Of a DNA stretch of 64,000 bases, positions 1 to 62,945 are shown in pieces. Numbering within the stretch: position 1 is the first letter of the stretch; each line of letters opens with the position of its first letter. Origin of the DNA: Sycon ciliatum (Eukaryota; Porifera; Calcarea; Leucosolenida; Sycettidae); NCBI RefSeq assembly GCF_964019385.1, contig NC_088644.1, forward strand, positions 15,045,332 to 15,109,331. The letters run 5' to 3'. The notes beneath the pieces are model-generated. The model did no database searches. It saw nothing but the letters and a program-made list of their open reading frames with translations, and was not told where the DNA came from. The position numbers were made by a program, and so were the translations under genes.

Positions 1-133
1 TTGTTGAATGCCTCAATATCCTTTTCAGTTTTGTGCCTTGTTGTCGCACTATCTGACTGTAGAATATCTCGTTACATTGGTGAACTGTTAGTCATAACTT
101 GCAACTTATTGGTCCTTTCTCTCTTTACTGAAA
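1..133 (+). repeat. Diverged end of the 591-bp retrozyme-family repeat
   Basis: The segment follows, with many substitutions, the sense 3' part of the unit seen at 5700-6449: the phrases cagttttgtgcctt, gcactatctgactgta and gttacattggtgaact appear in the same order. It continues to the left of the window. It is interrupted at 134 by a MITE. No ribozyme core lies in the visible part. Confidence 0.6.
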
Positions 134-2652: not shown

Positions 2653-3893
2653 ACAGGACTGATTCTCGTGATCCACTTGATTCCGCCAGACATGTTGTAT
2701 GCATATTCTATTTTATTTTATACTTTGCATGAAGTTTTCCCTTAGTCCTATTGGTATTGTCGGCTTTTGTTGACATCACTTCTGTCATTTCATTGTATCG
2801 TATTACTCTTCAGACATCAATCCTGAGTGGCATAAGCAAAAGTGGCACCCCGCTACCTACGCGGACATGCTTTTAACAATTTGTACCTTGCCCATCTCCG
2901 GAACCGAGAGGGTGTCTAGACGAAACTGTTGCAGCGGGGCAATGAGGACCACCCAGGGATGAAAGGAGCCAACTTTGAGTTAAAAAAAATGTGCATTGTA
3001 ACAGTGGCCTTACAGTGGACAGCTCCAATATTTGCACTTTTGTGTTTTGGTTTCTTCACATTTGGACAGTTTGGGTAATTCCTTTATGTGTTTGAGGTTA
3101 CAATATTTTCTCTATTTTCCGACCCCTGCTGTACTGCTTCCGCTGGCATTTCCCTTGGCTGACCCAATGTATGCTCATCATTTCACTCACATAGCAACCG
3201 GGTTGTACATGGGGTAGTGGTCTACCAGAATGTACTCACGATGGGGGTAGTGGTCTACCAGAATGTACTCACAGAATGTACTCAGTATACCGTCACACCA
3301 CACTCACAGCCACACGCTAGCCAAAAACTAGGCCAGAAGTAATGAAGAGTAAGGCCGCGGCCGGCAAGAGATACAAGTATGTCAGTGCAAGACACGAGCA
3401 GAGCAATGTCCTGGTGTAGGTGACTGGCCAGTGGGGGAGCGCCTGGAAATCCGACTCCCTAAATTTCCAGCCACGACCACTCAACAGGGCTGGGGGAAAA
3501 ACTCGCCTTGCGGCCAAAAAACCCTTCTACTAATATGGGACCTGCCCCACTGCCAGTCACACCCAAAAGAAAAACCGAAGAGAAACAAGCAGAAAGGAGT
3601 AACCATACAACCAAAAAACACCGAGACCCTCGGGACAGAAACACACAAAACAAAGCATGCCATGGAAAACCAGTAAAACAGCACCCAATGGAAGCCCAAA
3701 AACGTACGGGACCCAAGGGAGGGAGGGTGGGAAAACTCCACGCTCTACGAGGATGACAAGACCACGATGGCAGGTGGGGGAGAGTTGCGCAGTGGAAGAG
3801 CAGCAGAGCACGACAGAAAAATGGTGAGTGAAAAATACGTTTTTTACACTCTTTCGCTACGCTCAGCCGTGAAAAAACAACACATTTATCTTT
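2653..3893. other. No gene recognised; probable LINE 3' UTR and short duplications
   Basis: The first part is probably the LINE 3' UTR. A block of about 29 bases around ggggtagtggtctaccagaatgtactcac occurs twice in tandem at 3205-3270. The overlapping frames on both strands between 3430 and 3960 have no recognisable motifs. Confidence 0.35.
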
Positions 3894-3904
3894 AAACCAA
3901 TACA
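3894..3904. repeat. Left target-site duplication of the retrozyme array
   Basis: The 11-mer AAACCAATACA occurs here and again at 6450-6460, immediately outside the two ends of the 2545-bp array. This marks the array as a single insertion. Confidence 0.8.
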
Positions 3905-4412
3905 TGTAAAAGAGAAAAGGACATATGGATACGAGTTTAGAGTAACTCTCCATCACTGTAACATGATACTATATACAGTCAGAAAGTGCAATAACTAGGC
4001 ACAAAACTGACAGAGTACTGAGACATTCGACGTCCTGACACCTAACTTTAACACATCTCCGTAGCGCTAACCGACAGCCTTCCAACTTGGAAGGTTCAAG
4101 GTTATGGAAAGACCAAAGAGGGGAAGGCAAGCGCAAGGAAAACGAGCAAAAGCTACAGTCCCAACGGAACAAAGAATGTCGATTGTCACTGGACGATGAC
4201 GAGACCAGTACGATATTTGACAAAGCGGTCTAACTACAATTCGAAGCAGCAAAGCAGCACACCACCCAACTTGGGTGGGTCGTAAATATCAAAGATAAGT
4301 AAAGAAAGGGAAGCTTTGCGAAAACGAATTGTACAAGCCGAAAGCCAAACTCCTACAGTACTCCTCATGCATGACATTGTGATGGACTAGTTGACTACAA
4401 AACAAGTTGTTT

Positions 4413-4461
4413 CACACGACGTACGTTTCGCCGTATGGTTCGTGACGGCTCATCAGGTGTG
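4413..4461 (-). ncRNA. Hammerhead ribozyme (type I), copy 1
   Basis: Read on the minus strand, all invariant hammerhead parts occur in order: CACAC (stem I, 5' side), CTGATGA, stem II GCCGT with ACGGC closing a 10-base loop, GAA, a short stem III (ACG, TA loop, CGT), cleavage base C after GT, then GTGTG (stem I, 3' side). Every stem is perfectly complementary. Predicted cleavage is between 4418 and 4417. A short stem III is typical of retroelement hammerheads that act as dimers or with loop contacts. The core agrees at every required position; activity is inferred. Confidence 0.9.
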
Positions 4462-5003
4462 CAATTTGAAACTCGGATGTTGAGCCATAAATAAATGTAA
4501 AAGAGAAAAGGACATATGGATACGAGTTTAGAGTAACTCTCCATCACTGTAACATGATACTATATACAGTCAGAAAGTGCAATAACTAGGCACAAAACTG
4601 ACAGAGTACTGAGACATTCGACGTCCTGACACCTAACTTTAACACATCTCCGTAGCGCTAACCGACAGCCTTTCAACTTGGAAGGTTCAAGGTTATGGAA
4701 AGACCAAAGAGGGGAAGGCAAGCGCAAGGAAAACGAGCAAAAGCTACAGTCCCAACGGAACAAAGAATGTCGATTGTCACTGGACGATGACGAGACCAGT
4801 ACGATATTTGACAAAGCGGTCTAACTACAATTCGAAGCAGCAAAGCAGCACACCACCCAACTTGGGTGGGTCGTAAATATCAAAGATAAGTAAAGAAAGG
4901 GAAGCTTTGCGAAAACGAATTGTACAAGCCGAAAGCCAAACTCCTACAGTACTCCTCATGCATGACATTGTGATGGACTAGTTGACTACAAAACAAGTTG
5001 TTT

Positions 5004-5052
5004 CACACGACGTACGTTTCGCCGTATGGTTCGTGACGGCTCATCAGGTGTG
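5004..5052 (-). ncRNA. Hammerhead ribozyme (type I), copy 2
   Basis: This is identical to the ribozyme at 4413-4461 and exactly 591 bp from it. A minus-strand transcript crossing both would cut at 5009/5008 and 4418/4417 and release a 591-nucleotide monomer with ends suitable for circularisation. Stems I, II and III are intact. Confidence 0.9.
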
Positions 5053-5589
5053 CAATTTGAAACTCGGATGTTGAGCCATAAATAAATGTAAAAGAGAAAA
5101 GGACATATGGATACGAGTTTAGAGTAACTCTCCATCACTGTAACATGATACTATATACAGTCAGAAAGTGCAATAACTAGGCACAAAACTGACAGAGTAC
5201 TGAGACATTCGACGTCCTGACACCTAACTTTAACACATCTCCGTAGCGTTAACCGACAGCCTTCCAACTTGGAAGGTTCAAGGTTATGGAAAGACCTAAG
5301 AGGGGAAGGCAAGCGCAACGAAAACGAGCAAAAGCTACAGTCCCAACGGAACAAAGAATGTCGATTGTCACTGGACGATGACGAGACCAGTATTTGACAA
5401 AGCGGTCTAACTACAATTCGAAGCAGCAAAGCAGCACACCACCCAACTTGGGTGGGTCGTAAATATCAAAGATAAGTAAAGAAAGGGAAGCTTTGCGAAA
5501 ACGAATTGTACAAGCCGAAAGCCAAACTCCTACAGAACTCCTCATGCATGACATTGTGATGGACTAGTTGACTACAAAACAAGTTGTTT

Positions 5590-5609
5590 CACACGACGTA
5601 CGTTTCGCC
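5590..5609 (-). ncRNA. Truncated hammerhead, 3' half only
   Basis: Stem III, the cleavage triplet and the 3' side of stem I are present. The sequence then jumps at about 5608 into a plus-oriented unit, removing the CTGATGA box and most of stem II. It cannot form a ribozyme. It marks the inversion point of the array. Confidence 0.8.
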
Positions 5610-5864
5610 TTCCCCTCTTTGGTCTTTCCATAACCTTGAACCTTCCAAGTTGGAAGGCTGTCGGTTAGCGCTACGGAGATGTGTTAAAGTTAGGTGTCAG
5701 GACGTCGAATGTCTCAGTACTCTGTCAGTTTTGTGCCTAGTTATTGCACTTTCTGACTGTATATAGTATCATGTTACAGTGATGGAGAGTTACTCTAAAC
5801 TCGTATCCATATGTCCTTTTCTCTTTTACATTTATTTATGGCTCAACATCCGAGTTTCAAATTG

Positions 5865-5913
5865 CACACCTGATGAGCCGTCACGAACCATACGGCGAAA
5901 CGTACGTCGTGTG
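5865..5913 (+). ncRNA. Hammerhead ribozyme (type I), copy 3, opposite strand
   Basis: This is the same 49-base ribozyme on the plus strand. Stem I is CACAC 5865-5869 with GTGTG 5909-5913, the CTGATGA box is 5870-5876, stem II is 5877-5881 with 5892-5896, GAA is 5897-5899, stem III is 5900-5907, and the cleavage base is C5908. It lies in the single complete plus-oriented unit of the array. Confidence 0.9.
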
Positions 5914-6449
5914 AAACAACTTGTTTTGTAGTCAACTAGTCCATCACAATGTCATGCATGAGGAGTACTGTAGGAGTTTGGCTTTCGGCTTGTACAATTC
6001 GTTTTCGCAAAGCTTCCCTTTCTTTACTTATCTTTGATATTTACGACCCACCCAAGTTGGGTGGTGTGCTGCTTTGCTGCTTCGAATTGTAGTTAGACCG
6101 CTTTGTCAAATATCGTACTGGTCTCGTCATCGTCCAGTGACAATCGACATTCTTTGTTCCGTTGGGACTGTAGCTTTTGCTCGTTTTCCTTGCGCTTGCC
6201 TTCCCCTCTTTGGTCTTTCCATAACCTTGAACCTTCCAAGTTGGAAGGCTGTCGGTTAGCGCTACGGAGATGTGTTAAAGTTAGGTGTCAGGACGTCGAA
6301 TGTCTCAGTACTCTGTCAGTTTTGTGCCTAGTTATTGCACTTTCTGACTGTATATAGTATCATGTTACAGTGATGGAGAGTTACTCTAAACTCGTATCCA
6401 TATGTCCTTTTCTCTTTTACATTTATTTATGGCTCAACATCCGAGTTTC

Positions 6450-6460
6450 AAACCAATACA
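6450..6460. repeat. Right target-site duplication of the retrozyme array
   Basis: Second copy of AAACCAATACA; see 3894-3904. The following 270 bases to 6733 show nothing recognisable beyond a short CA-rich tract near 6558. Confidence 0.8.
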
Positions 6461-6743
6461 ACTAAGATTTAAATGTGCAGTTATTAATGCTGGCTAGCAG
6501 GTGATATAACAGGTGCTCACACTCATCCCAGACTCTGCATATTACTTCACCGTTCACGCACGCACACATACTAACCTGCACGCGTGCATGCAGACATACA
6601 TCTGCATATGCTCATTCTCATGAGCGCGGCTGCACCCTTTGTTTCAAGTATGTCCTTGATGGGGGGAAGTTTTCCCCGCCATCCCTCACATGTCTTCCGG
6701 GTCCTTCTGTGTGCATTGCATAATATTTATCACTATATCAGTA

Positions 6744-7152
6744 AAGCTGAACTCGGATGGCGAGCCAATATAATTATGATGAAGAAAGGAAAAAGACAAA
6801 ATGTTACGAGTTATGACAAACTGTCCATCAACGTAACCAGATCTTATACCGTCAGCGAGTGCGACAACTTTCGGCATTCTTTGTTGCCGTGGCGCGTAGC
6901 TCATGCTCTTCTTCATTGCGCTTTCCCTCCCCTCTTGGACCATTCCGAACCTGAGCCTTCCAAGTTGGAAGGTTGTTGGCTTGCGCCTTGGAGAAGTGTT
7001 GGAGCTAGGTGTCAGGTCGCCGAATGTCTCAGTACTCCTTGTCAGTTTCGTGCCAGTTTGTCGCACTCGCTGACGGTATAAGATCTGGTTAAGTTGGTGG
7101 ACAGTTTGTCATAACTCGTAACATTTTGTCTTTTTCCTTTCACCATCATAAT
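6744..7152. mobile_element. Diverged palindromic copy of the retrozyme family, without ribozyme
   Basis: The insertion opens with an antisense terminal part (actcggatggcgagcc, aaaaagacaaaatgttacga). It continues with a sense body (ccttccaagttggaagg, gtctcagtactcc) and a sense terminal part (ctcgtaacattttgtc), so its two ends are inverted repeats of roughly 100 bp. The 10-mer TATATCAGTA flanks it at 6734-6743 and 7153-7162. It differs from the 3.9-6.4 kb array at many positions, so it is an older subfamily. No hammerhead core is present. Confidence 0.7.
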
Positions 7153-7365
7153 TATATCAGTAGCACAAAGTTTCCCAGCAGGTCCTGGGACTGCAGTTTT
7201 GCGCTCCCTGGTACACTGAGTCTGAAGTTTAGATCTAGGGGATTCTAGACTTTTACCACAGCATGTGTTTATGTGATACTGTATGATGTCAAACGTACAT
7301 GGACATGATCCATACAGTTCCCCATTTAAGCCCTGCGCTTATATTGGAGCGGCTGCGTTAGTATA

Positions 7366-8313
7366 CGTCAGGCGAAATATCACGTCATAGTACATTTGAG
7401 ACCAGCGGGAAGAAGATGACGACGTCCACTAATTTAGTATCTGTGCACACAAATATGCTGTGTGTGTGACTTTGTGTGTCAGCTATGATGTCAAACTCTG
7501 TGGTTCCATGCCTAGCATGTAGGTCAGAACCATCCTGCAAAGTTTGAATGATGTAGGTCGCGCCGCCAACCATACATTTTGAAATTATCTTCGTAGTATA
7601 CCTTCCACCATAGAAATTTCAAATTTTTTGCTGAGAGGGTAGCAACCTCGATATGGCTTGTTCCAGGCATGCTGTGAAGCGAAACCCTGTTGAAGTAGTG
7701 GCGGGGATCTGCCCTGCAACTGCTACAACAAAAATGATTCGATCTGAGAAAGCGTGAGACCGCGAATCTCGGTTGAATGTTGAGTATTTCAATCCTTTTC
7801 ACGACGAAGATGGAGTTCTCATGATTTGGAGATGGACGTCGAGACAAAGGACATGGTTTCCGACTTCTGGCGTCTGGTGAAGCCAGGGATCATTAATTTT
7901 TGTCCAGTCAGGTCGGCAGCCTAGCCATCGGTAAGCTTGTGTTTGGATCCCGTTCTGCTCGATGTGGTACATCACAAACAATTTGATATCGCACAAAATG
8001 ATCTCTGCATCGTGCCTACGGTATTTTATATTCAGAAAATCACAAGGTGTCTCTGTGTGGCCGTCCTATGCCACGAGAAACCCGAATCAGGCTCCTATGT
8101 CCTCTGCCTTCTTGATTGAATGTCCACTTTTTTGAACAACGAACACAACAATCGATGACGGCTTTGCAGTGAAAAATACAGCTATACTGGAGCTGAAAAA
8201 GGAAGAAAAAACGTGCTCAGAATGAGACTCGAGTACACGCGTACTGTCCCAGCAGGTTCTGTGGTCCTGTGGATGTCGCTCATAGCTATATAGATGCGTA
8301 ATTTCGCGTGACG
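7366..8313. mobile_element. TIR element, copy 1 (copy 2 at 35335-36293)
   Basis: The ends carry CGTCAGGCGAAAT and its near-complement (one mismatch on the right). Most of the 950-bp interior is shared with 35335-36293. Minus-strand frames in both copies share the peptide DIKLFV then YHIEQNGIQTQAYR and LGCRPDW. This conservation suggests a remnant of a protein, but I do not recognise it, and both copies contain stops. No clear target duplication is visible. The superfamily is undecided. Confidence 0.65.
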
Positions 8314-20440: not shown

Positions 20441-20948
20441 TGACGTAAGTTAGTTAACTAGTACCTGAAAGGCCTAGCTAGATTTCGAGTGGATTTCGAA
20501 AGCGACGGGTGGGTGATTCAGATTGATACAGCACCGCATCAAAATAAATTTTCTTGTCACACTGCGCAGGCAAGAGCAGCGCGACGCACAAGAAAATAGT
20601 CGGCTACTCGGAATCAGTTCCATTTTGCAAAACAGCCGAGATCGCTCACCTGCGGGATCGCTCGCAAATCTGAGATCGCAGTTCCCTCACCTCCAGCTCA
20701 ACGCGTATCCAACGTATCGTGGAGATTTGCAAGTACTGTACGCGTCATCGTCGTTCAAAATAAATCTTGCAAAGAGCGGCGACTGATATGAACCACACAG
20801 GCAGTCGTGCTGCCCACGCAAACTTCCTATAGAGAAGGCGACCGTCGCGATCGACTTCCCTTTAGCCCCATCCCTCACACAAACAAGTCAACAAAGAGGC
20901 ATCTTTGGATTGAGGAGTGCTGGTTTCAAAACAACTGGTTTGAAGTTC
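20441..20948. other. No gene recognised
   Basis: Intronic DNA between the duplicated segment and the minisatellite; nothing recognised on either strand. Confidence 0.35.
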
Positions 20949-21270
20949 AAAGTAGAGCTGCTGTTAGCTCAGAGCAGAGCAGGTGTTAGCTCAAAGTAGA
21001 GCTGCGGTTAGCTCAAAGTAGAGCTGCTGTTAGCTCAAAGTAGAGCTGCGGTTAGCTAAAAGTAGAGCTGCTGGTAGCTCAAAGTAGAGCTGCGATTATC
21101 TCAAAGTAGAGCTGCTGTTAGCTCAAAGTAGAGCTGCTGTTAGCTCAAGGTAGAGCTGCTGTTAGCTCAAAGTAGAGCTGCTGTTAGCTCAAAGTAGAGC
21201 TGCGGTTAGCTCAATATAGAGCTGCTGTTAGCTCAAAGTAGAGCTGCTGTTAGCTCAACGTAGAGCTGCA
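20949..21270. repeat. 22-bp minisatellite, about 14.6 copies
   Basis: The unit aaagtagagctgctgttagc plus tc is repeated head to tail with single-base variants (ctgcggt, ctggtag, gattatc). It is non-coding and lies inside a presumed intron. Confidence 0.92.
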
Positions 21271-24434: not shown

Positions 24435-26426
24435 GCTGCTATTCTCTCCACCCTTGACCAACATGCACCCATCACTACCCGCCGCCGTGCAGACCGGCGT
24501 CCATGTCCCTGGCTGACTCGCGACCTGGTTGAGTGTGTCCGGAACCGAAACAGACTGCACCGCCGTCTAATGCAAGATAGAGCAAACGAGGCACTCCAGC
24601 AGGAGCACCGAGCTGCACGTGCCAAGGCCAGAAAGCTAGATAGACAGTTGAAGAATGCTTACTTTATGGATCAATGCTATACGTCTGATCAGAGGAAACT
24701 TTGGTCCGTGATGAACACTGTCACCGGACGAAAGAAGACCCACCGAGTACCCCAGGTATCAGCTGACCAGCTGGGCGACTTCTTTGCAGATGTTGTTCAT
24801 GACCCCAGTCGACCTACGCACCTACAGATGCCAGTTGGCCCTACGAAATCTGATGCCCTTACAGCCTTCCAACCTGTGTCGTTGTATGATGTCGCTAAGC
24901 GTTTGCAATGTGTGGATCCACATAAAGCTACAGGAAGTGATGGAATCCCAGGTATTGTGTTGAAACGTTGCTCGGACACCCTCTCCCCATACCTGATGAA
25001 GATCGTCAACTTATCTCTTGCGTCTGGTATAGTGCCATCAACTTTCAAACATTCTCTTATCAGCCCATTGTATAAAAATGGCGACCCACTGTCAGCTCGT
25101 AACTATCGGCCCGTCTCGCTACTGCCTATTGTTTCTCGCATACTGGAACACTTTGTCAAGAAACAGCTGACAACTTTCCTAGATGATCACTCCTTGTTAC
25201 CTTCAAGTCAATTTGCATACCGAAGAAATCACTCAACAGAAGATGCTCTTATCCTTGCCTCCAACCGCTGGAAATTGGCCAAATCGGAACGAAAACACAC
25301 CGGGGTAGTAATGGTAGATCTATCGAAGGCATTTGATAGAGTCCAGCATGCCAGGCTTGTGCAAGTGCTGTTTGACCTTGGCATTTGTGACACACCACTG
25401 GAATGGTTCCTCAGTTATCTCTCGGAGCGGCAGCAGTGTGTACGGGTGGAACACTCAGTTTCGCAATATGTTGGATGCTCCCGAGGAGTGCCTCAAGGCA
25501 GCGTTCTGGGCCCTCTTCTTTTTGTACTGTACACCAGTGATATGTCGTCAGTTCTACCAGGTAGTGTATGCCACCAGGAATTCGCTGATGATGTGGCTCT
25601 GGACTACTCCGACTATCAGCCTGATTTAGTGTGCTCTGTTCTCTCTAACGCTGTAACACGACTCGCTGAGTACTTGGACAACATTGGTCTGCTATTAAAT
25701 GCCAGTAAAACCCAAGTTATGTTTGTGAGACCCCGTGGGTGTCTGGATGGACCATCTGAAGTGAAGTGTGGTACCACAGTGCTTGATGTTACTCCAGTCA
25801 CGAAGTATCTCGGTGTCATGCTTGATGACCAACTGTCCTGGAAGCCCCAAGTGGACTTTATTGCCAGCAAGACTGCTACTACAATCGGGCAGCTCTGGCG
25901 CCATGGACGGTGCCTTTCACTCAATGCCCGCCGGGCCTGGTACATGAGTATGATCCAGTCTGTTCTCTGCTATGCCTCAAACTGTTTCTTTCCTGCTCTA
26001 TCCAAACTGCTGCTACATCGACTGCTACGCATTGCTAAGTCTGGCATACGAGCCATCTTCCAACTCCCCAGAAGGACCCCCACTGCTCCCCTATTTGCCA
26101 GACTATCAATGCCTCAGCTCCACCAGCTGTACGTGCAACGTCTGCTTCTCTTCGTCTTCCGCTGCCTTCATGGCAGAGCCAGCTCACTGTTCCAATCCTA
26201 CTACTCCCTCATTGCCACGGATGTGGACAGAAGTTGTGTCACGCGTGGTCAGGTCAGCCAGCTGCTCAGAGTGCCGTTCCTACCTGGTCCCTCAGGCCGT
26301 AGCTCTATCGCCTTTGTTGGCAGTACCACATGGAACTCTCTCCCTGCTGATATTCGCGCTTGCGACGTACGCCACACGTTTCAAGCATTGCTGTCTGGCT
26401 ATGACCTCATCTCCCTCGTCAACTAG
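24435..26426 (+). CDS. LINE reverse transcriptase, 5'-truncated but open
   Basis: A frame of about 660 codons with no internal stop; the first in-frame Met is at 24570, but similarity to the 32562 LINE begins upstream, near AAILSTLDQHAPITT. RT landmarks in order: ATGSDGIPGIVLK, NYRPVSLLPIVSRILE, QFAYRRNHSTEDAL, motif A MVDLSKAFDRV, GVPQGSVLGPLLF, motif C EFADDVALDY, and KYLGVMLDDQLSW. The FADD aspartates are intact. The C-terminal region with PRRTPTAPLF and TTWNSLPADIR is typical of CR1/L2/Jockey-type LINEs. Without an endonuclease it could not move by itself. Confidence 0.85.
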   Translation, partial: AAILSTLDQHAPITTRRRADRRPCPWLTRDLVECVRNRNRLHRRLMQDRANEALQQEHRAARAKARKLDRQLKNAYFMDQCYTSDQRKLWSVMNTVTGRKKTHRVPQVSADQLGDFFADVVHDPSRPTHLQMPVGPTKSDALTAFQPVSLYDVAKRLQCVDPHKATGSDGIPGIVLKRCSDTLSPYLMKIVNLSLASGIVPSTFKHSLISPLYKNGDPLSARNYRPVSLLPIVSRILEHFVKKQLTTFLDDHSLLPSSQFAYRRNHSTEDALILASNRWKLAKSERKHTGVVMVDLSKAFDRVQHARLVQVLFDLGICDTPLEWFLSYLSERQQCVRVEHSVSQYVGCSRGVPQGSVLGPLLFVLYTSDMSSVLPGSVCHQEFADDVALDYSDYQPDLVCSVLSNAVTRLAEYLDNIGLLLNASKTQVMFVRPRGCLDGPSEVKCGTTVLDVTPVTKYLGVMLDDQLSWKPQVDFIASKTATTIGQLWRHGRCLSLNARRAWYMSMIQSVLCYASNCFFPALSKLLLHRLLRIAKSGIRAIFQLPRRTPTAPLFARLSMPQLHQLYVQRLLLFVFRCLHGRASSLFQSYYSLIATDVDRSCVTRGQVSQLLRVPFLPGPSGRSSIAFVGSTTWNSLPADIRACDVRHTFQALLSGYDLISLVN

Positions 26427-27940: not shown

Positions 27941-28402
27941 ATTCGAAGCAGCAAAGCAGCACACCACCCAACTTGGGTGGGTCATAAATATCAAAGATAA
28001 AAGAAAGGGAAGCTTTGCGAAAACGAATGCTTCAAATTGTAGTTAGACCGCTTTGTCAAATATCCTACTGGTCTCGTCATAGTCCAGTAAGAATCGACAT
28101 TCTTTTGTTCCGTTGGGACTGTAGCTTGTGCTCATTTTCGTTGCGCTTGCCTTCCCCTCTTTGGTCATTCCATAACCTTGAACCTTCCAAGTTGGAAGGC
28201 TGTCGGTTAGCGCTACGGAGATGTGTTGAAGCTAGGTGTCAGGACGTCAAATGTCTCAGTACTCTGTCAGTTTTGTGCCTAGTTGTTGCACTTTCTGACT
28301 GTATATAGTATCTGGTTACAGTGATGGAGAGTTACTCTCAACTCGTATCTATATTTCCTTCTCCTTTCTACACTTATTATTGGCTCAACATCCGAGTTTC
28401 AG
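27941..28402. repeat. Retrozyme-family copy with an inverted 5' end, ribozyme absent
   Basis: 27941-28027 is an antisense fragment (ttcgaagcagcaaagcagca, cttgggtgggtc). From 28028 the sequence switches to sense and runs to the family terminus ctcaacatccgagtttc. The HHR-bearing segment of the 591-bp unit is missing. It abuts an (AAT)n tract at 28404. Confidence 0.75.
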
Positions 28403-28862
28403 ATAATAATAATAATAATAATAATGAAGTTGGTTGCTCCAACGAGGAGCACACGCTTCTTGCCGAACTTGACACTTGACTGACTCACGACTGCCATCCG
28501 CAGCACACCAGGAGCACGTCGCACCTTCCGCTCGGCAAACCTGAAAGAAAGCACCACTCCCTGCTCAATACACAGTGCCTGGAGAGCAGTATATAAGTGG
28601 TGCTTTTCAGGCACAATCTTCCTCAGCCTACTCAAGCTCAACTGATGAGGGGTCAATTCCCCGAAACACTGTGTATTGAGCAGGGAGTGGTGCTTTCTTT
28701 CAGGTTTGCCGAGCGGAAGGTGCGACGTGCTCCTGGTGGGCTCCGGATGGCAGTCGTGAGTCAGTCAAGTGTCAAGTTCGGCAAGAAGCGTGTGCTCCTC
28801 GTTGGAGCAACCAACTTCATGACTATTACCGCCGAAGTCGCAACTTCTAAGTTAATAATAAT
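28403..28862. mobile_element. Fold-back element bounded by (AAT)n, carrying a hammerhead
   Basis: Two arms of about 158 bp, 28425-28582 and 28668-28826, are near-perfect inverted repeats, with an 85-bp centre that holds the second hammerhead ribozyme. (AAT)n tracts lie at both outer edges. Both arms can be translated to the same peptide (VVLSFRFAERKVRRAPG), but since the arms are mirror copies this is not independent evidence of coding. The left arm is a copy lacking the ribozyme core, so the layout is an inverted 5'-truncated copy joined to a longer copy, as for Penelope-like elements. Confidence 0.7.
28636..28681 (+). ncRNA. Second, unrelated hammerhead ribozyme (type I)
   Basis: GCTCAA (28636-28641) and TTGAGC (28676-28681) form stem I. 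CTGATGA is 28642-28648. Stem II is GGGG 28649-28652 with CCCC 28659-28662 around a TCAATT loop. GAA is 28663-28665. Stem III is ACAC/GTGT (28666-28669, 28671-28674) with a very small loop. The cleavage base is A28675 after GT. All stems pair perfectly. The sequence outside the core shares nothing with the 591-bp unit, so it is an independent ribozyme family. Activity is inferred. Confidence 0.88.
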
Positions 28863-32206: not shown

Positions 32207-34860
32207 ACTTTATTTTACTTCACCAGAATTACAGGCAGTAGAATGCCTTCTCACTAGACCAGGTCTAGTTCTCACAAATGATGAAGAATGTGAATGAACA
32301 TGCTAAAGCTAATGAAGAACAAGAAATAGAAAAAGAGGAGAAACACTTGTGTTTTATATTTTATGACGGTATTTGTATGTGAGTGACAGTGATTACATGA
32401 CAAGAGAAAGAAAATAAAAAGATAGACAGAAAAGAGTAAGGAAAAAACGAAGCAGATGTATGAAATAGAAATAGAGAAGTTGAGGTATTTGAGGAGAAAA
32501 GTCAGTTTGTCGATTAGAGACCAAACCAAAAAGATCAAAATGTACATGTCTGACGAATGAGTCAAGACAGAGAAAGCGTGTCAAGAACATCTGGGCACAG
32601 CAGGGCTTTGAAACCCAGAATATCTTCATGGCAACGAATATTTGCCGGGAGCCTGTTCCAATACACGCTGCCCACGAATTGCATGGGCGCTCGAGATGCT
32701 GGTCCACGAACAAATGGAATTTGGAGAAGACGTGAGACCTGGCCACGTGTAACACGGCGTGTGCTTTGCTCAAGACCAGGTTCAGCGATCAACAGAAAGA
32801 AAGGCGAAAATAGCATGCTTGCATTGGAGGCAAGACATCTATGGACAAAAACAACAATCTTGAGCTTAAAATGATGGATTAGTGGGGGAATATTTAATCT
32901 AGAAATAAGAGGTGCGGTCGGTGTTTGACGAGGGAGCTGAAACACAGCTCTGACTCCAGCCTTGCTGATCTTCCCCAAACGGTCGAGAAGCTGAGCTGTG
33001 AGGCTTGGGTAGAATGCTGCTGAAGCATAACACAGCTGGCTGTTTACCATACTGGTGTACCACGACCGTCGAGCTCTCAGCGTTAGTGAACGCCCGTGTC
33101 TCCACAATTGCCCTATGGTTTGTGCTGTTCTACGTGACACATAGTCGACATGTGGCCTCCATGACAATTGGTCGTCAACGATCACACCAAGGTACTTTGC
33201 GGTGGCAGTCACCTCCAGTTGCTCGTTGTTGCAGAAAACATCGGGTGTGGCAATGGCTGCGCCACGAGGCTGAACGAACATGACCTGAGTGTTGCTGGCA
33301 TTCATTACGAGGCCGATGTCTTCAAGCCATCGGGAGATATCAGTTACTGCTCTCGTTAGAGTTCTGCCAACAAGATCTAAGTCAGGATGGGAGAAATCAA
33401 GGATTATATCGTCAGCAAATTCTTGGTGATTGACAGTTGCAGGAAGTGCTGTGTGCAGATTACGGGTGTACAACACAAAGAGAATGGGTCCAAGAACGCT
33501 CCCTTGCGGAACACCACGCGTACAGCCAACAGAGCAAGACAAGCTGTCCAGCACCCTCACTCGCTGTGACCTGCCACTGAGGTAGTCACAGAACCAGTGT
33601 AGGGCTGCTCCTCCAATGCCTAGGGTGTACAGTTCATTAACCAGTTTCTCATGTTGTACACGATCAAACGCCTTCGACATATCAATCATGACCAAACCGG
33701 TGTACTTGCGCTTGGATTTCGCTAATAGCCAGCGATTCACTGCTAGTACCAATGCATCTTCTGTTGAATGGCGGGGTCGATATGCAAATTGAGTCATCGG
33801 GTATAAATCATTGCTGTACAGATATTCTGTCAGCTGTCTCTTCACAAACTGCTCTAGGATACGCGAAACGATAGGGAGTAAGGATACAGGTCTGTAGTTG
33901 CGGGCTGATGAGCGGTCTCCGGCTTTATGCAGGGGACTGATGTGGGAGTGCTTGAACGTGGTGGGCACAACACCACTCTGTAGTGAACTATTAATGATAC
34001 AGGAAAGTGGAGGAGCAAGCACATTTACACATTGCCGCAGGACAATTCCAGGTACAGAGTCACTGCCGGCAGCTTTGAATGGATCCACCGCTTTAAGACA
34101 CTTTTCAACATCTGCAACACTTACAGGTTTGAAGACGTGAAGACTGTTGGCTGGCATTGGCCCAAGTGGCGGGTGCAGATTCTGTGGTCTGCTTGGGTCA
34201 TAGACAATTTCACCGAAGACCTGGCCGAGATCCTCAACAGAAACTTGAGGTATTTGACGTTCCTTCCGTCGCCCTGTGACTGCGTTCATTGCTGACCAAA
34301 GTTTCTGCTGATCAGGTGTGTTGCACTGGTTTACGAAGTACAGGTTACGAAGCTTTCGGTCAAGCTTCCTGGCAAAAGCTCTGGCGAGCCGATGTTGCTC
34401 ACGAAGCAACTCATTGGCTTGATCCTTCATGAGTCGATGGTGTAGCCTGTTGCGGTGCCGTACTGCAGATACCAACTCCTCAGTTAACCAAGGACAGATA
34501 CGGCGACCACGCCTGCGCCTCGCCACCGAGGGGGCGTGCTCATCTAGTGTTTCCATAATAGCAGAGGTGAATGCACCCGTCATATCATTTATCGTGCCGT
34601 TCCGAGGGAACTGATGAAAGTGGACACACAGATCAGTCTGAAACTTCTCCCAGTCGATGATGTGGATACGGCGACTCTGTCCGGGTCGTGATGTCCGGTT
34701 TACCCCTGTCTGGTTTACAGGCAAGTGTGCAAGGATGGCGAAATGGTCGCTAATATCTCCGAATTTCGTTTCACAGGCACCAGAAATGGGTGTATTTGAT
34801 AGAAACAGATCTATGGTTGAAGCCGTGTGGCTCGTGACACGAGTTGGTGAGGTGACATAA
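32138..34860 (-). mobile_element. 5'-truncated LINE with (AAC)n tail
   Basis: On the minus strand the element begins in the endonuclease and ends in a 3' UTR terminating with the same gaagtaaaataaag and (AAC)n tail (read as TTG runs at 32151-32205) as the 24435 copy. The tail is about 55 bp, much longer than in that copy, suggesting a younger insertion. Confidence 0.85.
32562..34860 (-). CDS. LINE endonuclease end plus intact reverse transcriptase
   Basis: One frame of about 765 codons runs uninterrupted from the 5' truncation to the stop. The first in-frame Met is at 34724, but similarity extends upstream through STIDLFLSNTP and FGDISDHFAILAH, the SDH end of an apurinic-like endonuclease. 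RT landmarks: AAGSDSVPGIVLR, NYRPVSLLPIVSRILE, QFAYRPRHSTEDAL, motif A MIDMSKAFDRV, GVPQGSVLGPILF, motif C EFADDIILDF, and KYLGVIVDDQLSW. The family is the same as 24435-26426. All catalytic aspartates are present. The truncated endonuclease makes it non-autonomous. Confidence 0.88.
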
Positions 34861-35334
34861 TTCCGATTGGTTCGTTCGACTCAGTAATTTTCCAGTCAAA
34901 AGATGGATGGCTACACATGACTAGGTAACTTGGATCGGTGTGCGAAGATAGTTGGCTTGGCTGCGCTGTGTTCTTGTGAGCAGCATTAACCTTGTTTCAG
35001 TGTGTATTTTAGTCAATTTTGCCCACTATCCAAGTGTTAGGTACCTCCTACCGTACGTTCTACAACCTTTTCCAAGCTGGCCTGCATGCACCCTCATGCT
35101 CACCTTTTGTCTCCTTTTGTCACCTTTTGTTCCGTTGACCTGGGTAGCTATTCATTCAAACTACAATGGGAACGTGCTAAATTGTGTTTGCACACAACTC
35201 ACAATTAGAATATCAAACCCTCTGGAAGTCATTTGCATTGGGCAAATGACAACGATAGAGATGAAGGATTACAATACTGCCCCGGTGTGAGGGGAGGGAG
35301 TAATTGCAGTGCATTTCATAAAACCGTCAGGCGA
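34861..35334. repeat. Inverted copy of part of the 30.9-31.4 kb element
   Basis: 35037-35157 (ttaggtacctcctaccgta, tcaccttttgttccgttg) is the complement of 31228-31325. The adjacent ctacaatgggaacgtgctaa block also occurs at 30504-30540. This region is a patchwork of transposon pieces without a gene. Confidence 0.55.
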
Positions 35335-50999: not shown

Positions 51000-51199
51000 N
51001 NNNNNNNNNNNNNNNNNNNNNNNNNNNNNNNNNNNNNNNNNNNNNNNNNNNNNNNNNNNNNNNNNNNNNNNNNNNNNNNNNNNNNNNNNNNNNNNNNNNN
51101 NNNNNNNNNNNNNNNNNNNNNNNNNNNNNNNNNNNNNNNNNNNNNNNNNNNNNNNNNNNNNNNNNNNNNNNNNNNNNNNNNNNNNNNNNNNNNNNNNNN
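51000..51199. other. Assembly gap (200 N)
   Basis: Run of N. The gap lies at a retrozyme-family copy, so the assembler probably failed on this repeat. Translations across it are meaningless. Confidence 0.99.
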
Positions 51200-51399
51200 A
51201 CTGTAGCTTTTGCTCGTTTTCGTTGCGCTTGCCTTCCCCTCTTTGGTCTTTCCATAACCTTGAACCTTCCAAGTTGGAAGGCTGTCGGTTAGCGGTACGG
51301 AGATGTGTTGAAGCTAGGTGTCAGGACGTCGTATGTTTCAGTACTCTGTCAGTTTTGTGCCTAGTTATTGCACTTTCTGACTGTATATAGTATCATGTT
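51200..51399 (+). repeat. Retrozyme-family copy, part 1 (continues at 57589)
   Basis: Sense family sequence from actgtagcttttgctcg to tatagtatcatgtt. It is broken by the hAT insertion and resumes at 57589. Its start is in the gap. Confidence 0.85.
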
Positions 51400-57588: not shown

Positions 57589-57684
57589 ATCATGTTACAG
57601 TGATGGAGAGTTACTCTTAACTCGTATCCATATGTCCTTTTCCTTTCTACATTTATTTATGGCTCAACATCCGAGTTTCAAATA
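57589..57684 (+). repeat. Retrozyme-family copy, part 2
   Basis: Resumes after the hAT with atcatgttacagtgatgg and runs to the family terminus ctcaacatccgagtttcaaa, followed by AAT repeats where the next LINE begins. Confidence 0.88.
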
Positions 57685-57689
57685 ATAAT

Positions 57690-60600
57690 AATGAATAGTA
57701 ATAATAACACAGATACGCGTACAACATGCACAGCCGTGCTATACATGCTTCCGCTGCTGTTCTCTAGCTCTGTCCAATATATGTACGTCAATGATTATTT
57801 CATAGTAAAGAAAAAGGACCAAGGAACTACAAGTTACGCTATAATGTCCACTGCCAGCACCATTTACTTGACAATCAGCCGCTGAGTCATGAAACAATCG
57901 CCGTGTGAAACTGCTGTTTGTTACTGCTGCCTATTGTCCATCTAAATCATATAACGGAAACGTGGCTAAATTCGTGCATCCCAGACGAGATCATTAAGAT
58001 ACCAGGTTACGACCTGTTCCGTCGTGACCGGTCCCAGTGCAGCACTACATGGAGCGACTTGGGTGGTGGTGGGGTAGCAGTTTTCTCTTCGTCCGCCCTT
58101 TGTGCTATGCGCCGCCGGGATCTAGAGTGCAACAATTCAGAGATGATAACTGTCGAAACAGGAGCTACAATCATTTCCTGTATGTACCGTCCTCCAAGAC
58201 ACGATAGTCTTGCATTCTGCAACTCATTCAGTCCTCTTCACCCCCTCGTTGACAACCGTCCAGTAATTGTCGTGGGAGACTTTAACTCCAAGAACAATGA
58301 GTGGAACAACGCAGACCCTACGAACACTGCAGGTAGACACATGCAGTCCGCCTTTGACGACTATGGCTTCACTATGGTCTCCAAGAACCATGGAACGAGG
58401 CCAACCAAAGATTCTAATCCGTCCCTAGACCTGATTTTAACTAATATGCCCCATCTTGTCACTTCATGTTACACATCCATGCCCATTGCAGACCACTGTC
58501 CTCTATTTTGCGCATATTCTCCACCAGAGAAACGCCACTCTAGAAGTACTGTCAACGCAGCCGCAGTCTCCAGAAAGGTTGACATGCACCTCCTCAGGCA
58601 GAAACTGAGCACACTACCATTGACCGAATGCATGCAGGGCACCAACGTGCACATCAGTTTCAGATGCATGGCCTACTCTGCACTGCTGGACCAGGCAATT
58701 CAGGCAGCAACGACCATCACACGCCGGAAAAACACCCAGTCGAACCAACCATGGTTCACAAAAAAACTTAAGACGCAACGTCAGCGAACTAACCGCCTCT
58801 ATGTGCTCCACCGAAAGGAGCCACTCAACGATTCCTTACGAGCTGCATACAAACTCTCGCGCAACCTGTACCACCGGTCATTAAGAGCCGCCAAGGACAC
58901 ATACTTGTCAACGCTCGGATACACAATGCTTGGCAAGGAAAGAAAGGGTGGCTATGCGTGGTGGAAACGTGCCAAAGCAATATGCAATATTGACCAAACA
59001 AATAAAAAGGCAATTCCAGACCTGCAGAACGGCAATGAAATTCACAAAACAGATCAAGCGAAGGCCGAAACGCTGTGTACCTTCTTTGCCCGCCAATGCA
59101 CCACTCAGTCAACGCCGCCGAATACTGTAGCAACTAGTATAACAATCAATGAAGCCGACGTCGATGGAAACAAATTTGGATTCGGAAACATACGCCCTGT
59201 TGAAGTCTTCGATGCAGCAAAGAGGCTGCAACAACATAAATCATCATCAGACATCAACCTGACAAACCGTATACTAAAGCAATTCGCAGATATCCTTTCC
59301 CAATCACTATCAGTATTGTTCAACTACAGCCTTGATGATGGTGTGTTCCGTCCTCCTGGAAATCATCCACTGTAATACCGGTGTACAAGAATAGAGGTTG
59401 CGCCAAAGAGCCTACCAATTACAGACCTATATCCCTTCTCCCATGCATAGCGAAACTAATGGAAAAGATTCTCTCGGAACGTCTACTTCGATACTTGATG
59501 ACCCAGGGTGTAATTTGTAAAGGTCAATTCGCATATGTACGCAACAAGTCTGTAACGGACCAACTTATCTTGCTAACCCAATCAATGGCTGTAAATATTG
59601 ATGATGGCACTAATTTTGACCTGATATCTCTAGATTTCAGGAAAGCTTTCGACCGGGTCGACCACTCTATACTCCTAAAGAAATTCGGTAAGATTGCTAC
59701 AGCTTCGTCAGTAAAATGGCTGAAGAGCTTCTTAGGGGATCGACAAATTGAAGTGAAGGTACATAGCACTAAATCGAAGAAGCGGAGCATCAACTGCGGA
59801 GTGCCCCAAGGTTCCCACCTTTCACCACTCCTATTCCTACTCTATATAAATGACCTGCCCAACGCTATGCAACATTGCACGCAATATCTATTTGCAGATG
59901 ATGTCACCCTTCTACTGGCTTACAAACCTGAAGACACCCTCGCCAGTAGAGCGAACATGCAGTCTGATCTCGATGCATGTCAAACATGGGGCAGGAACAA
60001 ATTAAATTAAATTCTCAGCAAGCAAGACATCCGTGCTGTGCCATAGAGCTATCAATGATACACCTACTGCAGGAATCCAATACCAAATGTACAATGAGCC
60101 ATTAACGGTGGTTTCCGAACTGCAACATCTTGGTATCACCTTGACCGACAACCTGGATTTCCGCAAACATGTCGCCTCAATAACTTCGAAGTTCAGATAT
60201 CGAGTGCACCTACTGTCAATTATGTCCCAGCAACTTACGCCTTCGGCAATGATCATACTGTACAAAGGGTTCGTAAGACCTGTGATCGAATATAGCTGTA
60301 CGGTGTGGTCGTTTGGATCTAATAAGAAACCCATGACCACTCTTGATCAATTACAGGCAAGGTTTGCTAGAGCTCTACTGAAAAAGAAAAAAATTGCATT
60401 TGATTACACTTCTTCCAAATCTGTCTTAAATTCTAAATGCTCCCTAGAGTCACTAGCCTATTGTCGTCAAATCATCAGTCTCACTACTTTTCACAGATAT
60501 GTTTTCCATCATCGTGATTACCTTGCTGATTTCCATTTCAAGATTACGAATAGTGAGCGACGACCAAATAAAATCATTCTTCCCAAATTTAAATCATTGT

Positions 60601-60900
60601 CTAAGTCTCTCTTCATGTTCCGAACTGCTATTTTATGGAACTGTTTACCCCCAGTCTAACATCGGAAGCCTCGCTCTATAAGTTCAAAGCTGCCCTCAGG
60701 AAATTTACAGCTGACTATGCTTATGCAATCAACGGAATTCCGCCACCTTGCAGTTGATTTTCCCCATTTCTCTCCTCATCAATCCCTACTTGTCTTTGTA
60801 CATACATCTACATCTACTGTTCTTTCAATCAAATAAACCCCTCGATAGGCACATTGCCTTTGGGTCATTTCATAATAATAAAAATAAAAATAATAATAAA
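57690..60900 (+). mobile_element. LINE with AAT-rich ends
   Basis: Coding part 57918-60659, then a 240-bp 3' UTR containing aataaa and ending in an AAT/AAAT tract at 60870-60900. AAT repeats also sit at its 5' side. It lies between a sense (57589-57684) and an antisense (60905-61007) fragment of the retrozyme family. Confidence 0.78.
57918..60659 (+). pseudogene. LINE endonuclease and reverse transcriptase with frameshifts
   Basis: First frame (to 59375): endonuclease landmarks ITETWLNSCIPDEI, GGGVAVFSSSAL, VGDFNSKNNEWN and IADHCPLF, then linker. A shift near 59360 leads to the RT frame (to 60010): NYRPISLLPCIAKLMEKIL, QFAYVRNKSVTDQL, motif A SLDFRKAFDRVDH, GVPQGSHLSPLLF and motif C LFADDVTLL. 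A second shift near 60005 leads to HLGITLTDNLDF, RPVIEYSCTVW and the C-terminal ILWNCLPP. Catalytic residues are intact; only the two shifts and the missing endonuclease start break it. It is a different family from the 24.4 and 32.6 kb LINEs. Confidence 0.85.
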
Positions 60901-60904
60901 TTGT

Positions 60905-61007
60905 CGTATTTGAACTCGTATTCTGAGCCAGTAATAAATGTAAAAAAGAGAAGAAACACATGAGAACGAGTTATGAAGCAACTATCTACAACTGTAACAC
61001 TATGATA
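60905..61007 (-). repeat. Diverged antisense end of the retrozyme family
   Basis: gtaataaatgtaaaaaagag, cgagttatgaagcaa and actgtaacactatgat follow the antisense family terminus with many changes. It is cut at TTAA (61008-61011) by the next element. Confidence 0.6.
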
Positions 61008-62621: not shown

Positions 62622-62945
62622 TAAAAGAGAAAAGGACATATGGATACGAGTTAAGAGTAACTCTCCATCACTGTAACATGATACTATATACAGTCAGAAA
62701 GTGCAATAACTAGGCACAAAACTGACAGAGTACTGAGACATTCTACGTCCTGACACCTAACTTCAACACATCTCCGTAGCGCTAACCGACAGCCTTCCAA
62801 CTTGGAAGGTTCAAGGTTATGGAAAGACCAAAGAGTTTCTGACTGTATATAGTATCATGTTACAGTGATGGAGAGTTAATCTTAACTCGTATCCATATGT
62901 CCTTTTCTCTTTTACATTTATTTATGGCTCAACATCCGAGTTTCA
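62622..62945. mobile_element. Palindromic retrozyme-family insertion with 13-bp target duplication
   Basis: An antisense segment (taaaagagaaaaggacatat to gaaagaccaaagag, about 215 bp) joins at 62836 to a sense segment running to the family terminus. The two ends are inverted repeats of about 70-90 bp. AGTTGTCAGAGTG flanks it at 62609-62621 and 62946-62958. No hammerhead. It is close in sequence to the 3.9-6.4 kb array, so it is recent. Confidence 0.85.

Follow-up and report, generated by a model that had tools for sequence, protein, structure and literature searches.

The array at positions 3905–6449 of the window, i.e., the whole 64,000-nucleotide stretch of Sycon ciliatum DNA analysed here (contig NC_088644.1, positions 15,045,332 to 15,109,331 of the forward strand), is probably a non-autonomous, non-coding retrozyme with a circular RNA form, reverse-transcribed by an enzyme of the Penelope-like element (PLE) type on both target strands and from two start sites. 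The array is not a PLE, yet it is inserted in the PLE manner. An initial annotation, made from the sequence alone, had called it retrozyme-like, and this is upheld by its tandem, non-coding, mobile and hammerhead-bearing units, with more than 1,000 copies of the hammerhead in the genome. Beyond that annotation, a head-to-head layout, two different 3′ ends, a bias toward (AAT)n targets and a second family of elements (28424–28853) were found. The novelty lies in the pattern of integration, which points, for retrozymes, to machinery of the PLE type.

The array is a single insertion bounded by direct repeats of 11 bp (Table 1), the target duplication that had been annotated initially; random stretch pairs of the same size have at least 11 bases in common in 0.075% of 20,000 draws. 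Its two arms stand head-to-head (5′–5′) and terminate in two different 3′ ends, A and B, that lie about 30 nt apart. The units had been described as exactly 591 bp long. This holds for the spacing of the two minus-strand hammerheads and fails for the junction-proximal unit, which measures 586 nt, with a 5-bp deletion and further changes (98.5% identity). Four of the changes in this unit recur, among the fetched loci, only in a twin of the array, and the unit is without a G common to the other units of the insertion; it was probably copied from another RNA template. The twin lies 92 kb upstream (L009, C2:14955900–14960500), in a locus that is 100% identical to the array and its flanks over 4,601 bp (window 2898–7498) and that represents either a false assembly duplication or a recent segmental duplication. 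The 591-bp unit has a GC content of 43.5% and does not code for protein: a concatemer contains no open stretch longer than 86 codons. When circularised, its sense strand has a predicted minimum free energy with a z-score of −4.8 against 60 shuffles and 60% of its bases paired, and the antisense strand scores somewhat weaker (z −3.8).

The two minus-strand hammerheads and the one on the plus strand are, as initially annotated, intact and identical to one another. Each gives an end-to-end match to the type I model of Rfam (RF00163, Hammerhead_1), at 4412–4462 (−), 5003–5053 (−) and 5864–5914 (+), with 26.8 bits and an E-value of 0.0017 in a 4.3-kb scan, which lies below the gathering score of 34. 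A scan of the whole window at the gathering score reported no hammerhead; at E up to 2 the three were recovered, with an E-value of 0.025. Stem I has five perfect pairs (CACAC/GUGUG), a 3-nt bulge and three further pairs, stem II has 5 bp, and stem III has 2 bp with a GUAC loop, a palindromic sequence. Left unconstrained, the 58-nt motif is predicted to prefer another structure (−14.2 versus −6.9 kcal/mol for the hammerhead), and the hammerhead fold is therefore assigned by homology and not by energy. The core pattern CTGANGA-N6-30-GAAAC occurs six times in the window versus 1.15 expected; three of these matches are the hammerheads of the array, one belongs to the second element (28642) and two look like chance. 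With at most two mismatches allowed, the 538-Mb genome contains 1,313 matches to the 39-nt core and none to its reversed version. This genome is that of an animal by its 55 matches to the Wnt domain, which is restricted to animals and gave a signal in 0 of 14 control genomes. A chance motif is ruled out by the pattern counts in the window together with the zero matches of reversed controls throughout the genome, for this core as well as for those of the second family and of the PLEs. A pattern scan of viral contigs gave no match.

Of the 591 family, 35 loci were examined, i.e., those scored among 1,210 candidates, a sample that favours well-preserved copies. They yield 37 rows, 34 of them two-armed and three one-armed (L016, L041 and the second L040 insertion, which is cut at the end of the fetched sequence); removal of two twins (L009 of the window and L024 of L023) leaves 32 two-armed rows. 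Both ends are classifiable in 30 of these, and all 30 combine one A end (monomer positions 513–522) with one B end (544–546), each order of the arms occurring 15 times. Had each arm chosen A or B independently and with equal chance, the probability of such an outcome would be about 1e-9. A second sample consisted of ten single-hammerhead loci from the top of the pattern list, with ends classified by eye. The five readable loci (L056, L057, L058, L059 and L063) again have one A and one B end, at positions 508–515 and 539–546, respectively; among the other five, L060 contains an N gap, L062 is one-armed and three are discussed below. The 591 family, the second family and the PLEs each have a predicted short hairpin ahead of B. 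In the open-access literature, searched by title or abstract opening, no report of an A-plus-B rule for retrozymes was found, the subscription literature lying mostly outside this scope.

At the inner side of the 30 insertions, 13 junctions overlap by 1–12 nt, three are flush and 14 have extra or unaligned bases. The count of overlaps is a lower bound, as short aligned pieces were dropped; the window array itself is listed at +12 yet overlaps by 3 nt. The 60 arm 5′ ends depart weakly from a uniform distribution (Kolmogorov–Smirnov p 0.02). L011 and L018, and perhaps L019 as judged by eye, have a 5′ end no more than about 5 nt away from the predicted cut; about 0.9 of 60 would be expected, and with a chance of 0.065 for three this is at most a hint. 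A cleaved linear monomer as the usual template is ruled out, since 43 of the 60 arms exceed one unit (17 of 30 A arms and 26 of 30 B arms).

Opposite arms usually share their private variants. In 22 of the 29 insertions with at least 80 shared positions, both arms are identical over those positions, whereas arms taken from different insertions are identical in 80 of 841 pairs. Sites differ at a rate of 0.15% between opposite arms versus 0.57% between insertions, and in a re-pairing test none of 5,000 rounds came as low as observed. When full units from the same locus are paired, 72 of the 101 pairs (the window's twin and both L040 insertions included) show no difference, and the median difference is 0, versus 4 per 591 nt between insertions. 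This fits repeated passage round one circle; it also agrees with a linear multimer transcribed from an already homogeneous array. The near-identity of the units had initially been read as a sign of recent activity. Nearly identical they are, but this mainly reflects copying from one template, and the differences between insertions are the better measure of recency.

A target bias is likewise observed. At least 12 nt of repeat in (AAT)n phase is present on both flanks in 22 of the 30 insertions, whereas AAT/ATT tracts with four or more units cover 0.14% of the window. The remaining insertions, that of the window included, lie at AT-rich sites, mostly with duplications of about 11–13 nt.

The genome contains PLEs with which this anatomy can be compared. 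A GIY-YIG search listed 13 places. One, L044 on the small contig C291, is UvrC-like: its 640-aa open frame with GIY-YIG resembles bacterial UvrC and presumably comes from a contaminant or symbiont. The other places include open frames of 807 aa (L054) and 749 aa (L055). The L054 frame scores above the Pfam cut-off for GIY-YIG and contains a YIDD motif; it does not match Pfam RVT_1 even at E up to 10, and a weak match to a reverse transcriptase (RT) family was obtained (E 0.077). Its assignment as an RT is based on the motif, this weak match and the context. A PDB search with the PLE frame gave no match at E up to 1. The frames are flanked by inverted repeats with a PLE-like hammerhead, to which the genome contains 248 matches at up to one mismatch (reversed control 0); the hammerhead of L045, L046, L048 and L049 is related to it yet distinct. 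Ends were read by eye at 16 PLE loci, i.e., L052–L055 and, selected for two hammerheads close together, L066–L077. Fourteen of the 16 could be read at both ends, and each of them pairs an A end with a B end, with direct repeats of 9–13 nt lying outside (ATT)n. Two are counted with some latitude: L069, in which A is displaced by about 20 nt, and L076, where bases near B are deleted. Of the remaining loci, L053 shows one end only and L072 is complex and without duplication. Retrozymes and PLEs thus have an insertion anatomy of the same kind. At L052 (678–968), a head-to-head copy of the 591 family is inserted inside a PLE repeat.

The second family, with units of 475 bp, is unrelated in sequence to the 591 family and is retrozyme-like. 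Its hammerhead-like motif, read by eye with a stem III of 3 bp, gave no match in an Rfam search. Allowing up to two mismatches, the genome has 4,765 matches to the 34-nt core (reversed control 0), and at L043, where both outer ends could be read directly, tandem 475-bp units carry 11 plus-strand and two minus-strand motifs at a spacing of 475. These tandem units rule out that the copy in the window (28424–28853) is a remnant of a PLE pseudo-long terminal repeat (pLTR). Among the matches listed, there are at least 28 two-armed clusters and 12 with one strand. In 26 of the 28 two-armed clusters listed, one end is A′ (400–413) and the other is compatible with B′ (437–447), and none is A′/A′ or B′/B′; B′ is unambiguous (443–447) in 14 of the 26, position 438 also being the end of the similarity to the query. 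The copy in the window has, like the 591 array, a twin at the same offset. At C1:48866699–48870574, an array of this family and a 591-family insertion (L038) adjoin, about 45 bp apart.

As far as the available text of Cervera and de la Pena (2020, PMC7229834) goes, the element shares with metazoan non-LTR retrozymes (LTR, long terminal repeat) the type I hammerhead with a short stem III, tandem non-coding units of low GC content (below 50% here), structured, self-paired RNA, target duplications of more than 4 bp and co-existence with PLEs. The typical monomer size is not matched, as theirs are about 170–400 nt versus 591 and 475 here, although size is descriptive rather than defining; that text was not found to describe arrays that are head-to-head and pair an A end with a B end. 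With PLEs, as described in the sources consulted in part (PMC11167929, PMC3846280) and as seen at L052–L055 and L066–L077, it has in common head-to-head repeats, a one-sided tail, a hammerhead, duplications of about 8–13 nt and AT-rich targets. Unlike PLEs, it has no open reading frame (ORF) for RT/GIY-YIG, has several units per arm and is mainly found in (AAT)n. Plant LTR retrozymes, according to the part of PMC7761336 available, likewise have hammerhead-bearing non-coding units of similar length, but these have type III hammerheads, LTRs, a primer-binding site and polypurine tract (PBS/PPT) and 4-bp duplications, compared to type I and 11 bp here. Schistosome W-elements resemble it in being hammerhead-bearing, satellite-like repeats that are thought to be mobile; the part of the text covered states no end rule (PMC8490949).

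These elements can be combined in the following mechanism. The type I hammerheads would, by homology, self-cleave the transcript into 591-nt monomers that may be closed to circles; animal retrozymes are described to make circular RNA, most likely closed by tRNA ligase (PMC7229834, text available in part). A Penelope-type GIY-YIG endonuclease/RT would cut an AT-rich target on both strands, the two cuts lying about 11 nt apart, after which the two target ends would prime, one complementary DNA (cDNA) starting from site A and the other from site B. The end rule and the shared variants suggest that both starts usually lie on the same RNA. Each cDNA could make up to several turns of the circle, giving tandem units, and the two would meet 5′–5′, often with a short overlap, so that repair would leave a head-to-head array with the tail at one end only. 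In the literature, the PLE protein of a lizard cuts both strands of the target, extends them and starts at two adjacent internal sites, the interval between them being the tail (PMC11167929). The repeats of PLE copies stand, in the text available, head-to-head, and one of them may carry a tail (PMC3846280). Mobilisation in trans, as had been proposed initially, would follow from this, and it is supported by the anatomy common to the PLEs of the same genome; in the parts available of the 2020 papers, PLE machinery is named only as a candidate mover of retrozymes (PMC7229834, PMC7761336). A more specific version, to which we give somewhat less than an even chance, is that one circular RNA templates two Penelope-type RTs at once, each with one start site and one target strand. 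Coupling would then explain the pairing of A and B, and rolling would explain the tandem array.

Several observations weigh against this interpretation. No convincing common sequence was found between the 591 unit and the 3′ region of the PLEs, and the 475 unit resembles that region weakly, reaching 2 in 1,000 shuffles in an end-anchored global alignment and nothing in a local one. The (AAT)n targets that dominate the 591 family occur at two of the 16 PLE loci, so the partner may be another PLE family. The end rule has deviations: in the two unclassified rows, both from L029, as well as in L061, L064 and L065 of the second sample, one end is neither A nor B, and two listed clusters of the 475 family have one end elsewhere (372, C1:4301266; 360, C8:16833434). 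Arms differ in seven of the 29 insertions, with a maximum of 9 of 410 sites in L023, and the window array, with one unit from another template, is a partial exception to the single-template pattern. Lastly, hammerhead mutants of a PLE insert in vitro as well as the wild type (PMC11167929). As PLE insertion in vitro is independent of hammerhead cleavage, the step of which we are least sure is the part played by the circle.

That in vitro result favours an alternative in which the template of the PLE-type machinery is a multimeric transcript of an existing array, linear and uncut, and neither hammerhead nor circle takes part in transposition. The deviant junction-proximal unit of the window is what a mixed multimer could give. 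Nevertheless, units are mostly identical, insertion-specific lengths (590, 591 or 592 nt) run through both arms, and L042 has up to eight full 590-nt units, so the source array would have to be homogeneous each time; we regard this alternative as unlikely, while taking it more seriously than those that follow. If the element were instead derived by deletion from an autonomous PLE, of which it would be the pLTR, and were no separate retrozyme family, its sharing of the insertion anatomy of the resident PLEs would be expected, and so would the ATG within CTGATGA, where the ORF of one PLE begins (PMC11167929). Here, however, that frame stops after 13 codons and the element has no ORF; L045 and L052–L055 have no real similarity to either monomer apart from the copy inserted in L052, and hammerheads number 1,313 and 4,765 versus 248 for the PLE family, at differing mismatch limits. 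We consider such an origin improbable.

Mobilisation by long interspersed nuclear elements (LINEs), with inversion by twin priming, is more improbable still. LINE RT ORFs do lie within the window, and an (AAT)-rich tract at the end of one LINE region resembles the flanks of many copies. Twin priming leaves a variable inner end, whereas both outer ends here are fixed 3′ sites about 30 nt apart, and (AAT)n on both sides of 22 of the 30 insertions marks it as target and not as tail. Satellite expansion by recombination, or an assembly artefact, is scarcely credible: the 100%-identical twin of the array 92 kb away and the difficulty of assembling tandem units could suggest it, but copies occupy many sites, flanked by target duplications, and their ends are fixed while their unit numbers vary. 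The preferred reading thus remains that of a retrozyme inserted by a PLE-type enzyme.

The window contains further copies of the 591 family (Table 1). The two at 6744–7152 and 62622–62945, both with target repeats, show that the head-to-head layout is old and recurrent. An assembly gap of 200 N (51000–51199) interrupts another copy. Elsewhere in the window, LINE-like ORFs are present at 24435–26426 (+), 32562–34880 (−) and 57909–60659 (+), all with Pfam RVT_1 and the third with an endonuclease domain, and a 22-bp minisatellite of about 15 copies spans 20947–21269.

Table 1. Coordinates of the retrozyme array and of related copies in the window.
Feature	Position	Strand	Basis
Left target-site duplication AAACCAATACA	3894–3904		Sequence repeat test
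Right target-site duplication AAACCAATACA	6450–6460		Sequence repeat test
Minus-strand arm, about 2.9 units, 3′ end at site A (left; ...CTTTTACA on the minus strand)	3905–5609	−	
Plus-strand arm, about 1.4 units, 3′ end at site B (...GAGTTTC)	5607–6449	+	
5′–5′ arm junction, 3-nt overlap	5607–5609		
28-nt tail between sites A and B, at the right end only	6422–6449	+	
Junction-proximal unit, 586 nt, with changes absent from other units	5009–5594	−	
Type I hammerhead, intact	4413–4461	−	RF00163, 26.8 bits
Type I hammerhead, intact, 591 bp from the first	5004–5052	−	RF00163, 26.8 bits
Type I hammerhead, intact, predicted cut after 5908	5865–5913	+	RF00163, 26.8 bits
Diverged 591-family fragment, 74%	3–126	+	
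Old head-to-head 591-family copy, 73–76% identity, 10-bp duplication TATATCAGTA, tail on left arm	6744–7152		
Copy of the 591 family, 93%; plus arm runs to B, followed by (AAT)n; left portion in inverted orientation, its end neither A nor B	27941–28404		
Head-to-head copy of the 475-bp-unit family, between (AAT)n tracts	28424–28853		
Hammerhead-like motif of the 475 family	28636–28681	+	Read by eye
591-family fragment, 97%, adjoins N gap	51200–51399	+	
591-family fragment, ends at B before (AAT)n	57589–57683	+	
Diverged 591-family fragment, 76%	60908–60999	−	
Short head-to-head 591-family copy, A left and B right, 13-bp duplication, 97–99% identity	62622–62945		

With two unrelated families and PLEs in one genome, the insertion anatomy supplies evidence on the question which enzyme moves animal retrozymes. 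Moreover, the A-plus-B rule constrains the mechanism of the PLEs themselves, as it suggests two coupled starts on one RNA instead of two independent ones.
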